Assembly: GCF_012999535.1 (NCBI RefSeq)
Contig: NZ_JABBWV010000004.1
Coordinates: forward strand, 1 to 64,000
Source: Microbispora sp. H11081
GTDB lineage: Bacteria; Actinomycetota; Actinomycetes; Streptosporangiales; Streptosporangiaceae
DNA: 64,000 nucleotides
Direction: 5' to 3'
Both the position numbers and the translations under genes were made by a program. The notes under the pieces are model-generated. The model saw only the letters and a program-made list of their open reading frames with translations, was not told the origin of the DNA and did not search any database. Positions 17,813 through 27,653 of the stretch are shown one piece after another. Every line of letters begins with the position of its first letter. Position 1 is the stretch's first letter.

Positions 17813-18619
17813 TCAGCGCCCGGGCGACAGCCGTACGTGCGCGCCCGGGGGCAGACCCAGGCGGTCGGCGGCGTCCCCGGCGTTGATCGCCATCGCGACC
17901 AGGCCGGCGGAGTCGGCGAACGCCACGAGGTCGCCCGGAGGCACGGCCGTGAACGTCTCACGGAACGGCACGACGACCTGGCGGCGCCCGAGCCACACGG
18001 CGATGGTGTCGCCGAGCCGCACGCCGAGCTCGGCCAGGTCGGTGGCGGTGATCGACAGCTGGACGTTGCCGTGCCTGTCCACCGACAGCACCTCGCCCTC
18101 GGCCGCGCCGTCCCGCAACCTGCAGGTCGGCGCGGGCAGGGACACCAGGCGGTTCACCGGCATCGGCGGCCCCACGTCGGCGACCACGCGACCGGTGCAC
18201 AGGTGGGCGGCCACCGGGGCGAACAGGTCACGCCCCTGGAAGGTCGGAGAGACGTCGGCCAGGAACAGCTGCGAGTTCGTTATCTCGTAGGCGGCGTCCG
18301 CGCCTCCCGCGGCGCGGACGGCCCAGGACAGGACGCCGTTGTCGGGGCCGAGGAACACGCGTCCCCCCGCCTCCACGGCGACCGGGCGCCGGTTGCCGCC
18401 CACGGAGGGGTCGACGACCGCGAGATGGACGCCGGCCGGCAGGTAGGGCAGGGTCTGCGCGAGGATGGCCGCGCCGCGCCGTACGTCCCCCGCGGGGACG
18501 AGATGACCCACGTCGATGATCCGAGCCTGCGGGGCGATGCCCGCGATCACGCCGTGGCACGCGGCGACGAACCCGTCCTCCAGCCCGTAGTCGGTCAGAA
18601 GCGTGATTACAGAGCTCAC
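17813..18619 (-). CDS. SAM hydroxide adenosyltransferase (DUF62 / SAM hydrolase)
   Basis: Predicted 268-residue enzyme of the DUF62 family, which splits S-adenosylmethionine to adenosine and methionine with water and is related to fluorinase/chlorinase. The N-terminal domain opens with VITLLTDYGLEDGFVAACHGVIAGI and contains HLAVVDPSVGG and FLGPDNGVL. The C-terminal domain has VDRHGNVQLSI. The N-terminal Asp-Tyr-Gly and Asp-Asn-Gly motifs are those of the family. I prefer the GTG at 18619, preceded by TAGTGT; a GTG at 18658 would add 13 residues. It is convergent with the peptide transporter operon, with a 10-bp gap. Confidence 0.88.
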   Translation of the reverse strand: MSSVITLLTDYGLEDGFVAACHGVIAGIAPQARIIDVGHLVPAGDVRRGAAILAQTLPYLPAGVHLAVVDPSVGGNRRPVAVEAGGRVFLGPDNGVLSWAVRAAGGADAAYEITNSQLFLADVSPTFQGRDLFAPVAAHLCTGRVVADVGPPMPVNRLVSLPAPTCRLRDGAAEGEVLSVDRHGNVQLSITATDLAELGVRLGDTIAVWLGRRQVVVPFRETFTAVPPGDLVAFADSAGLVAMAINAGDAADRLGLPPGAHVRLSPGR

Positions 18620-18726
18620 ATCACGTGACACTACGTCTGTCCCGCCCGGCCTGAACACCCCGGGTTCGTCTGAAGGGTGAGCGCATTACCATGGGACGGC
18701 CTTGCGAGCCGATCGAGGAGGAGCGG

Positions 18727-22744: not shown

Positions 22745-22847
22745 CTGGGTCGTCCCTCGATCAGAGCGGGCGCGCATGCCGGAAGATTAATAAAAGCCGG
22801 CCGCCGTCAATAGGATGTCAACCGATTGCGGGAGGGCTGGATACGGC

Positions 22848-23399
22848 ATGGCACTGGACGACACGACCGAGGACCTGGCCCGATCGGCTGCCCAGGGGGA
22901 CCATCGCGCGCTCGGTGAACTGCTGCGGCGCATCGAGCCCGACGTGCTGCGCCACTGCGAGCGGCTCCTACCGTACCGGCAGGACGCGGAGGAGGCGGCA
23001 CAGGACACGCTGCTCGCCGTGGCCCGCAACATCGCCAGGTTCGAGGGACGCGCGAAGTTCAGCACCTGGTTGCACATCGTGACCGTCAACTGCGCCAGGA
23101 CCACCTATCGCTCGCTCAAGCGGCGCTCGTCGGAGCAGGCGGAGGAACTGCCGGAGCAGCGGCCCGATCCCCGGCGGGTCAGCGTCATCGCCGGGTCGCG
23201 GCTCGACCTGCTCGACGCGATGGAGGCGCTGGAGACCGAACGGCCCGACCTCGCCCAGGCGCTCGTGCTGCGCGACATCTGCCAGCTCGACTATGCGGAG
23301 GTCGCCGACCAGCTGAAGATCCCCCTCGGAACGGTCAAGTCCCGCATACACCAGGCGCGCAAATACGTGCAGGCGGCCCTCGGCGAGGCGTACGGCTGA
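22848..23399 (+). CDS. RNA polymerase sigma factor, ECF type
   Basis: Predicted 183-residue sigma-70-family factor. Region 2 (about residues 22-90) contains RHCERLLPYRQDAEEAAQDTLLAVARNIARFEGRAKFSTWLHIVTVNCARTTYRSLKRR. Region 4 (about 125-175) has the helix-turn-helix LRDICQLDYAEVADQLKIPLGTVKSRIHQARKYVQ. There is no region 1.1 or 3, as in ECF factors. GGAGGG lies 11 bp before the ATG at 22848. No anti-sigma gene is adjacent, so its control is unknown. A CGTCTC/GAGACG hairpin follows the stop. Confidence 0.92.
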   Translation: MALDDTTEDLARSAAQGDHRALGELLRRIEPDVLRHCERLLPYRQDAEEAAQDTLLAVARNIARFEGRAKFSTWLHIVTVNCARTTYRSLKRRSSEQAEELPEQRPDPRRVSVIAGSRLDLLDAMEALETERPDLAQALVLRDICQLDYAEVADQLKIPLGTVKSRIHQARKYVQAALGEAYG

Positions 23400-23406
23400 T
23401 ACAAAT

Positions 23407-23425
23407 CGTCTCATTATACGAGACG
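23407..23425 (+). terminator. hairpin after the sigma factor gene
   Basis: Arms CGTCTC and GAGACG flank ATTATAC, eight bases after the stop. It is short and lacks a T-run, so it is only a weak terminator candidate. Confidence 0.4.
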
Positions 23426-23497
23426 GCGGAACGGACAGAGGGGACGCCGGGGTACAGTGCTAGGGACCTTCCGTCGAAGGTTCCACAACTGAACATG

Positions 23498-23635
23498 CTC
23501 ATCCAGAGGGGTGGAGGGACCGGCCCTGCGAAGCCCCGGCAACCTCCCCGGTGTCGAACTCGTGCCCACGAGGCCCGGCCGGGACAGGTGCCAATTCCGG
23601 CTCGCGGCCAGGGTGGTCGCGAGCGAAGATGAGGG
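23498..23635 (+). promoter_or_regulatory. SAM-I (S-box) riboswitch
   Basis: The leader carries the S-box consensus in order: CTCATC opening P1, CAGAGGGGTGGAGGGAC, GGCCCTGCGAAGCCCCGGCAACC (P2 and kink-turn/GGCAACC core), a P3 arm, GGTGCCAATTCC, a P4 arm and GAAGATGAGG closing P1. P1 pairs CTCATC (23498-23503) with GATGAG (23628-23633). GAGGG, a ribosome-binding candidate for thrC, starts inside the closing strand, so SAM binding would hide it and lower translation. No terminator hairpin separates the switch from the ATG, which favours translational control. Confidence 0.93.
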
Positions 23636-23649
23636 AAAGGCCTCGCTTC

Positions 23650-24912
23650 ATGGCGCACACCAGCACTGCCGCTACCACCGTCGAGTTCGGCCCCGCCACC
23701 GGTCTTTCGTGCCGCGAATGTGGTGCCCTCTATGAGCTCGGCCCGAACTTCGCCTGTACGGAGTGTTTCGGCCCCCTTGAGGTGGCGTACGAATTCGGTG
23801 ACATCCGCCGGGAGGACATCGAGTCGGGCCCGGCGAACATCTGGCGGTACCGCTCCCTGCTCCCCGTCCCCGCCGACGTGGCGGCCAAGCCCAACCTCCA
23901 GCCCGGCTGGACCAAGCTCGTGAAGGCCGACAGGCTGGCGGCCGAGCTGGGCCTGCGTTCGCTCCACGTCAAGGACGACTCCGGCAACCCGACCCACTCC
24001 TTCAAGGACCGGGTCGTCGCGATCGCGGTCGAGGCCGCGCGCAACTTCGGCTTCCACACCCTGTCGTGCTCCTCCACCGGCAACCTCGCCGGCGCGGTGG
24101 GCGCGGCGGCCGCCAGGGCCGGGCTGGACTCCTGCGTGTTCATCCCCGCCGACCTGGAGGCGGCCAAGGTCACCATGGCCGCCGTGTACGGCGGGCGCCT
24201 GGTCGGCATCGACGGAACCTACGACGAGGTGAACCGCTTCTGCTCCGAGCTCATCGGCGACGAGCTGGGCGAGAAGTGGGGCTTCGTCAACGTCAACCTC
24301 CGGCCGTACTACGCCGAGGGTTCCAAGACGCTGGCGTACGAGATCGCCGAGCAGCTCGGCTGGCGGCTGCCCGACCAGATCGTCATCCCGATCGCGTCGG
24401 GGTCGCAGCTCACCAAGATCGACAAGGGCTTCCGCGAGCTGGTCAAGCTGGGCCTGGTCGAGGATCGGCCCTACCGGATCTTCGGTGCGCAGGCCGAGGG
24501 CTGCTCGCCGGTCTCCCAGGCGTTCAAGGCCGGTCAGGACGTTGTGCAGCCGGTGCGGCCCGACACCATCGCCAAGTCCCTCGCCATCGGCAACCCGGCG
24601 GACGGGCCGTACGTGCTCGACATCGCCCGGCGTACGGGCGGCGCGGTGGAGGACGTGAACGACCACGAGGTGGTCGAGGCGATCCGCCTGCTGGCCAGGA
24701 CCGAGGGCGTGTTCGCCGAGACGGCGGGCGGCGTGACGGTCGGCGTGCTGCGCAAACTGGTGCGCGAGGGCCGCCTCGACCCCGACGCCGAGACCGTGGT
24801 GCTGAACACCGGCGACGGGCTCAAGACGCTCGACGCGGTGGCCGAGCACGCCCGTCCCGCCGCCGTCATCCGCCCCTCTCTCGAGGCGTTCCGTACGGCA
24901 TTCGCCAACTGA
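23650..24912 (+). CDS. thrC: threonine synthase-type PLP enzyme
   Basis: Predicted 420-residue PLP enzyme of fold type II. An N-terminal zinc-ribbon (SCRECGALYELGPNFACTECFGPLEV, two CxxC pairs at about 20-40) precedes the catalytic domain. The PLP lysine lies in NPTHSFKDR and the phosphate-binding loop is SSTGNLAGA. Threonine synthase converts O-phosphohomoserine to threonine. The ATG at 23650 lies 16 bp past the SAM-I riboswitch, so expression falls when SAM is high. That is unusual for a pure threonine enzyme but fits the methionine/threonine branch point. The CysO-like gene follows by 45 bp on the same strand. Confidence 0.92.
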   Translation: MAHTSTAATTVEFGPATGLSCRECGALYELGPNFACTECFGPLEVAYEFGDIRREDIESGPANIWRYRSLLPVPADVAAKPNLQPGWTKLVKADRLAAELGLRSLHVKDDSGNPTHSFKDRVVAIAVEAARNFGFHTLSCSSTGNLAGAVGAAAARAGLDSCVFIPADLEAAKVTMAAVYGGRLVGIDGTYDEVNRFCSELIGDELGEKWGFVNVNLRPYYAEGSKTLAYEIAEQLGWRLPDQIVIPIASGSQLTKIDKGFRELVKLGLVEDRPYRIFGAQAEGCSPVSQAFKAGQDVVQPVRPDTIAKSLAIGNPADGPYVLDIARRTGGAVEDVNDHEVVEAIRLLARTEGVFAETAGGVTVGVLRKLVREGRLDPDAETVVLNTGDGLKTLDAVAEHARPAAVIRPSLEAFRTAFAN

Positions 24913-24957
24913 AAGCGTTTCTCAAGGCCCATCAGCAGCGACGAAAGCGAGCGAATA

Positions 24958-25233
24958 ATGAGTGTTTCCGTGCGGATTCCGACGATTCTCCGGACGTACA
25001 CCAACGGAGCCGCGGAGGTGAGCGGCGAGGGGGGAACGCTCCGCGAGGTCCTGCAGAAGCTGGACGCGGACTATCCCGGCATCGGCGGTCGAATCCTGGA
25101 CGAAACGGGTAAGATTCGGCGTTTTGTCAACGTCTATGTAGGGGAAGAGGACGTCCGATTTGCCGAGGGCCTGGACACCGTAACCCCGGACGGGGTGCAG
25201 GTTTCGGTCATCCCCGCCGTGGCCGGAGGCTGA
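24958..25233 (+). CDS. cysO: CysO-like ubiquitin-fold sulfur carrier protein
   Basis: Predicted 91-residue MoaD/ThiS-family protein with the diagnostic C-terminal Gly-Gly (VIPAVAGG) that is adenylated and converted to a thiocarboxylate. It closely resembles mycobacterial CysO as I remember it: VRIPTILRTYTNG at the start, GTLREVLQKLDADYPGI, RRFVNVYVGEEDVRFAEGL and the same PAVAGG end. In Mycobacterium, CysO-thiocarboxylate gives sulfur to O-phosphoserine through CysM. Here cysM and the Mec protease are not adjacent; thrC is. The pair lies behind the SAM riboswitch. The ribosome-binding site is weak (AAAGCGAG). Confidence 0.88.
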   Translation: MSVSVRIPTILRTYTNGAAEVSGEGGTLREVLQKLDADYPGIGGRILDETGKIRRFVNVYVGEEDVRFAEGLDTVTPDGVQVSVIPAVAGG

Positions 25234-25483
25234 GCCGCCGCGCGGGGGCGAGCATCTGACATGCGCTTCTGTCCCGATGAAGTCGGGTGATGCAATGTCA
25301 AAAGGTGCAGCTCTCAACTATTCAACAGCAAAGTGAATATTCTTCGGTCCCGCTTAGAGTGAACGCCACGTAGTAGTTTGCGGATTGACTCTGTTGTCCT
25401 ACGCCTTGACACAGGTATGGTCGAGGCGATCGACAAAACCGGGGGCTTCTTGGTGGTCCCCAGCCCAGCAAGAGGAGTCGGAA
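25234..25483. other. 250-bp leader of the cold-shock gene
   Basis: Less GC-rich than its surroundings. TTGTCC (25394) and TATGGT (25416) are separated by 16 bp and could be the promoter; TTGACA at 25406 is another -35 candidate. No other gene or RNA family is recognised. Confidence 0.4.
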
Positions 25484-25684
25484 GTGGCGCAGGGCACCGT
25501 CAAATGGTTTAACGCGGACAAGGGCTACGGCTTCATCGCGGTAGACGGTGGTAAGGACGTGTTCGTCCATTACTCGGCAATCATGATGGACGGCTACAAG
25601 GCCCTCGAGCAGGGTCAGCGGGTGGAGTTCGACATCACGCAGGGTCAGAAGGGCCCCCAGGCGGAGGCCGTACGGGCCGTCTGA
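25484..25684 (+). CDS. cold-shock protein, CspA family
   Basis: Predicted 66-residue single cold-shock domain that binds single-stranded RNA/DNA and melts RNA structure. Both RNP motifs are present: KGYGFI (RNP1) and VFVHY (RNP2), within [34 protein letters not shown]. It starts with GTG at 25484, preceded by AGAGGAG at 7 bp. Length and sequence are those of the main actinobacterial Csp. A second, longer cold-shock-domain protein lies at 40 kb. Confidence 0.95.

Positions 25685-26000: not shown

Positions 26001-27653
<1,653 letters not shown>

Follow-up and report, generated by a model that had tools for sequence, protein, structure and literature searches.

A SAM-I riboswitch, a threonine synthase-like gene and a sulfur-carrier gene in Microbispora as a probable MetM/MetO homocysteine-forming pair

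Why does a riboswitch that senses SAM stand before a gene usually labelled threonine synthase, and why does a gene for a sulfur carrier follow it? Both features occur in the window, that is, the whole stretch of 64,000 nucleotides of Microbispora sp. H11081 DNA analysed here. The SAM-I (S-box) riboswitch aptamer lies on the plus strand at 23496–23635 (RF00162, E 3.8e-15 in the Rfam search of the window; the score of 72.9 bits exceeds the gathering score of 44.4), and the match covers model positions 1–108, the full aptamer. It is followed on the same strand, after 14 nt, by a gene for a 420-residue PLP enzyme of the threonine-synthase family (23650–24912, the start being best placed at ATG 23650) and, 45 bp beyond the stop codon of this gene, by a gene for a CysO-like sulfur carrier of 91 residues with a Gly-Gly end (24958–25233). 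The sequence-only reading had described a complete S-box, whose start it placed correctly to within 2 bases, and a CysO-like carrier 45 bp downstream, whose end coordinate was exact, and had suggested that the enzyme makes homocysteine from O-phosphohomoserine with the carrier thiocarboxylate as sulfur donor, naming plain threonine branch-point control as the alternative. We regard the locus as very probably a SAM-I-controlled MetM/MetO pair for the formation of homocysteine, and the two genes are called metM and metO below. The best protein matches to both products come from Microbispora, with 94% identity for MetM and, among the named matches, 97% for the carrier. An ECF-type sigma factor gene (22815–23399) is the upstream neighbour of the S-box, and the pair is followed on the plus strand by a cold-shock gene (25484–25684) and then groEL (26031–27653). 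A csp match and a groEL match were each found downstream in 72 of 80 named loci, many of whose contigs are cut. A gene of the SAM hydroxide adenosyltransferase type (PF01887, PF20257) is located on the minus strand at 17813–18658, some 5 kb before the S-box.

In Streptomyces, homocysteine is made by a synthase termed MetM (Hasebe et al., 2024), which has homologues in cyanobacteria, according to the available part of a later source (PMC12172450). The same excerpt states that O-phosphohomoserine is converted into homocysteine by MetM, which keeps S. albulus from methionine auxotrophy, that S. albulus metM carries an upstream SAM riboswitch, and that a relative of S. albulus metO, a sulfur-carrier gene, adjoins the cyanobacterial metM-like gene (PMC12172450). 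As judged by sequence relationship and by this excerpt, the suggested formation of homocysteine from O-phosphohomoserine via a carrier thiocarboxylate is supported and matches the published MetM/MetO route. For a cyanobacterial relative with 51.6% identity to MetM, the excerpt also reports threonine production in vitro and an incomplete fulfilment of the MetM function in cells (PMC12172450), and both findings call for caution towards the MetM/MetO reading of the present locus.

The window enzyme was matched by the TIGR00260 thrC model at 278.9 bits (cut-off 167.1) and by PF00291, though TIGR00260 matches MetM as well as ThrC and does not tell them apart. The solved structures nearest to MetM are threonine synthases (2d1f, 1uim, and 2zsj), and the PLP lysine K119, in the motif SFKDR, is kept in all 139 MetM rows of the alignment. 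The model match and the solved relatives, together with the threonine reported for the cyanobacterial enzyme, would fit plain branch-point control, in which metM encodes a second threonine synthase tuned by SAM and the carrier is a passenger belonging to another pathway. However, the genome has its own ThrC (contig C50, 125068–126072), which adjoins a GHMP-kinase gene, probably thrB, and is 34–35% identical to MetM, and a further TIGR00260 match besides MetM was detected at E 1e-50 in 100 of the 101 genomes of an order-level sample, so that the cell need not rely on MetM as its sole ThrC and MetM is unlikely to be the cell's threonine synthase. The exception was one genome (G243), in which MetM alone matched the thrC model at E 1e-50, through either a gap in the draft assembly or a genuine loss. 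Furthermore, MetM does not share the residues fixed in the other ThrC proteins of the order, from which it differs at 44 columns fixed differently at a level of at least 97% on each side (alignment of 139 MetM and 16 ThrC rows), several of them within the NSxNPxRxxGQKT and GNAGN stretches of ThrC. A passenger carrier would, in addition, neither suit the presence of a carrier gene behind metM in 134 of 138 loci examined nor account for the missing MetX of the window genome, both of which are described below. The alternative of plain threonine branch-point control, weakened above all by the second thrC-model match in nearly all genomes, was therefore set aside and appears very unlikely. In a tree with one IlvA outgroup, MetM was separated from ThrC with support of 0.71 for the MetM side and 1.00 for the ThrC side. 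MetM has some 60 residues ahead of the part that aligns with solved ThrC, and this N-terminal segment holds four cysteines, which are conserved in 138 or 139 of the 139 MetM rows; the solved threonine synthases align from MetM residue 61–64 or so, near their own N-termini, and 1e5x aligns later. Because 15 of the ThrC rows were trimmed to the matched stretch and the start of the 16th was chosen by the analyst, the ThrC rows are uninformative on this segment. As far as the sequence comparison goes, the usual label threonine synthase is thus most likely a misnomer for a homocysteine synthase.

The product of metO belongs to the ThiS/MoaD family (PF02597) and ends in IPAVAGG. Its best solved relative is 3dwg_C (E 1e-24 over residues 1–91), listed as 9.5 kDa culture filtrate antigen cfp10A, which we take to be CysO of Mycobacterium tuberculosis. 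This likeness, together with the established cysteine-forming reaction of CysM/CysO, raises the question of whether the pair is a cysteine synthase of that type, which would convert an activated serine and the carrier thiocarboxylate into cysteine. Such a role seems most improbable, since the enzyme is near ThrC and far from cysteine synthases (the best cysteine-synthase model shown for MetM, cysteine synthase A, gave 31.3 bits against a cut-off of 387) and since SAM control would suit methionine supply better than cysteine supply; a CysM/CysO identity was set aside on the enzyme family as seen in both models and solved relatives. Some sulfhydrylases accept sulfide, and MetM might likewise form homocysteine from free sulfide and O-phosphohomoserine, MetO being a helper dispensable for turnover. 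In the available part of the source, sulfide tried with the cyanobacterial enzyme gave only an unidentified peak, a result counted on the side of free sulfide (PMC12172450). The tight linkage of the carrier gene to metM (134/138 loci) and the IPAVAGG motif, which was invariant in all 134 carriers read, argue against a dispensable MetO and make the use of free sulfide improbable.

The 134 carriers read comprised 96 ending in Gly-Gly, 37 with a tail, and one running off its contig. The tails extend 1–6 residues beyond Gly-Gly and consist of a single Cys in 26 of the 37, and the tailed forms are scattered over Nocardiopsis, Streptomyces, and others (loci L015–L043, L104–L132, and L133–L212). C-terminal trimming of QbsE precedes its adenylation. 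Tailed MetO would, by comparison with QbsE, need trimming before adenylation, and the tailed sequences suggest a trimming protease in those species. The window's own MetO ends in Gly-Gly and requires no trimming.

The order-level sample consisted of 101 genomes from 31 genera, 97 of which belong to the window's own family. A MetM relative, called at E ≤1e-100, and an S-box were present in 101/101 genomes, and in every one of them an S-box stood immediately ahead of metM in the same orientation, with 13–83 nt (median 27) separating it from the start of homology. The arrangement of S-box and metM is thus not due to chance, and the adjacency is not limited to this strain, the case that the sequence-only reading had considered damaging to its proposal. 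Among the loci fetched, a carrier gene follows metM in 78/80 named, 29/29 order, and 27/29 phylum loci, three sets that may overlap in species. The named loci were the 80 top-ranking ones out of more than 590, and by title more than half of them are Streptomyces. The two named loci lacking a carrier sit 69 and 73 nt from a contig edge, and the two phylum loci lacking one (L033 and L042) are not at a contig edge. An Rfam search of 15 chosen from the 80 named loci detected an S-box in 15/15. A regular-expression test for the S-box core, which was too strict for longer aptamers, was positive in 18/80 named, 29/29 order, and 4/29 phylum loci. The genome searches scored only part of the first-look candidates, and the large RNA searches used stricter filters. 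Two genomes (G247 and G290) have a second S-box (L237:973–1064 and L238:3935–4034, respectively), located 7–8 nt before an open reading frame of 203–214 codons whose product resembles an acetyltransferase. For another three S-boxes distant from metM (in G212, G201, and G204), no clear target was found within reach.

The curated cut-off of the MetX model, 500 bits, was reached by no genome, controls included, and a strong MetX was defined by E <1e-100, a limit set after a gap was seen in the scores. On this definition, a strong MetX was present in 33/101 and absent from 68/101 order-sample genomes, the latter including the window genome and all eight sampled relatives of its genus; seven genomes have weaker MetX-like matches (E 1e-27 to 1e-43), and if these are counted, the 68 become 61/101. 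The best match to the MetX model in the window genome was at E 1.7e-6. MetA gave one weak match among the 101 genomes and none in the window genome, from which the acyl-homoserine route is absent as judged by MetX and MetA. The usual homocysteine pathway is thus not complete in all relatives, as the sequence-only reading had allowed that it might be. Its expectation that metX, metY, and metB would be missing held in part: the window genome has no strong MetX, and neither of its two strong PF01053 proteins passes the MetY model TIGR01326 (339.4 and 380.4 bits, below 495.1), but one of the two passes the cystathionine gamma-synthase model, and a MetB/CGL-like gene is therefore present. From its place beside a gene for cystathionine beta-synthase, reverse transsulfuration is its most likely role. 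Its presence nevertheless means that forward transsulfuration from O-phosphohomoserine may operate, which counts against the MetM/MetO reading, as does the finding that all 33 order genomes with a strong MetX keep it alongside MetM. Four ThiF proteins of the window genome exceed the cut-off, and one of them combines ThiF with a rhodanese domain in the manner of MoeZ.

The S-box before metM is the sole RF00162 match in the 7.38 Mb genome, and its short leader was compared with those of related genomes. A short expression platform is predicted at 23625–23649 on the plus strand from the fold of the isolated segment; in it, the 3' strand of P1, GATGAGGG (23628–23635), could pair with a predicted alternative partner, CCTCGCTTC, before the ATG. 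In the 58 of 101 order-sample leaders read in detail, the nearest start codon is 11–17 nt past the aptamer; GATGAGGG is the 3' strand of P1 in 51/58, a CCTC or CCCC stretch stands ahead of the start codon in 58/58, and in 40/58 the isolated segment is predicted to fold into a hairpin between this stretch and the 3' strand of P1, with a mean z of -2.6 for the related leaders. The predicted fold of the window segment 23600–23662 was better than 200/200 shuffles, and neither the whole leader, as well folded in 24/200 shuffles, nor the piece 23620–23662 (33/200) stood out. In the ligand-free predicted fold of the whole leader, the hairpin displaces P1 and the 5' strand of P1 pairs near the start codon, so that folding alone cannot tell which state is ON. 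A sense-strand terminator was not found between the aptamer and metM, where the gap is too short for a terminator with a T run; the lone terminator-like site in 23390–25500 is on the minus strand (23425–23407), 1.5 such sites being expected from shuffles. A search of 23390–25500 for a promoter of the sigma-70 type found none. On the strength of the short leader, we infer that S-box control most likely acts at the start of translation.

In a sample of 198 genomes from the phylum, MetM was present in 74, a strong MetX in 71, both in 16, and neither in 69. MetM and MetX thus tend towards mutual exclusion, with an odds ratio of 0.35 and a Fisher p of 0.0013, uncorrected for shared ancestry. With a limit of 600 nt to the following gene, 49 of the 142 S-box matches at E ≤0.001 precede metM and 18 precede metX, each group including one match (in G135 and G102, respectively) below the gathering score; the other 75 are outside both counts. 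The two placements never coincide in one genome of the phylum sample. Where MetM and MetX occur together, in 16 genomes representing seven families, the S-box is before metM in 16/16 and before metX in 0/16. On the other side, 25 of the 74 genomes with MetM lack an S-box in the 600 nt before the gene, and five of these 25 have one elsewhere. Tentatively, and at somewhat less than an even chance, the S-box may mark the enzyme that commits homoserine carbon to homocysteine, which would be metX in a single lineage and metM elsewhere, also where both genes occur, while the tails on more than a quarter of the MetO carriers read may add a protease step before activation and possibly a further control point. 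We lowered this reading from an even chance because 17 of the 18 metX placements, with the S-box 162–243 nt before metX, are from one family. If it is true, the position of the riboswitch would predict the homocysteine route in use.

For the window locus itself, we propose the following course of events. The Gly-Gly end of MetO would be adenylated and thiocarboxylated, probably by a MoeZ-like enzyme encoded elsewhere in the genome. MetM would draw O-phosphohomoserine from the threonine branch and convert it into homocysteine with the MetO thiocarboxylate as the sulfur donor, a role that Hasebe and colleagues reportedly ascribed in 2024 to thiocarboxylated MetO; the formation of homocysteine by MetM in this organism is deduced from its family relation to the published MetM. 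The homocysteine may then feed methionine and subsequently SAM. Plentiful SAM would bind the S-box and lower the expression of metM and probably of metO, and this repression would most likely be exerted at the start of translation. Under such a scheme, proteins named threonine synthase in the genomes of Microbispora, Streptosporangium, Nonomuraea, and related organisms are most likely homocysteine synthases, and MetM as a homocysteine synthase would fill the apparent methionine gap of the 68 genomes without a strong MetX. Two signatures, the 44 fixed columns and the four cysteines of the N-terminal segment, are available for correcting the annotation.

The locus can be compared with several known systems. 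The Wolinella route, which Krishnamoorthy and Begley are said to have described in 2011, leads from a protein thiocarboxylate to homocysteine with a MetY-type enzyme and O-acetylhomoserine; the window genome differs in having no strong MetX and in that neither of its two strong PF01053 proteins reaches the cut-off for MetY. Acidimicrobium ferrooxidans is described as an organism without any of the homocysteine routes recognised by 2018 (PMC5764234). The carrier resembles CysO of the CysM/CysO system of M. tuberculosis over its whole length, but the partner enzyme is ThrC-like, not of the CysM type. MetM shares the PLP fold family and the SFKDR lysine with ThrC, both that of its own genome and those of known structure (2d1f, 1uim, and 2zsj), but is distinguished from it by the 34–35% identity to the own-genome ThrC, the 44 differently fixed columns, and the N-terminal segment with its four cysteines. 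With MetM/MetO of Streptomyces, as far as the available text describes them, the locus has in common a ThrC-like enzyme, an adjoining sulfur-carrier gene, and an upstream SAM riboswitch; Streptomyces loci of the same gene order encode proteins 76–82% identical to the window MetM. In S. lividans, the accessible part of a further source lists RF00162 before the pair SLIV_16930–SLIV_16925, assigned to threonine biosynthesis, in a table whose heading states validation by RNA-seq (PMC8079986), and we infer that this is a metM–metO pair. From MetM/MetO of Streptomyces, the present locus differs in belonging to another actinomycete family and in having a leader of 14 nt from aptamer to start codon. 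In the library and listings searched, no description of the pair in Microbispora or its family was recognised. The homocysteine route and its link to the riboswitch are already published for Streptomyces, to which the present locus adds a strongly conserved member from another family.
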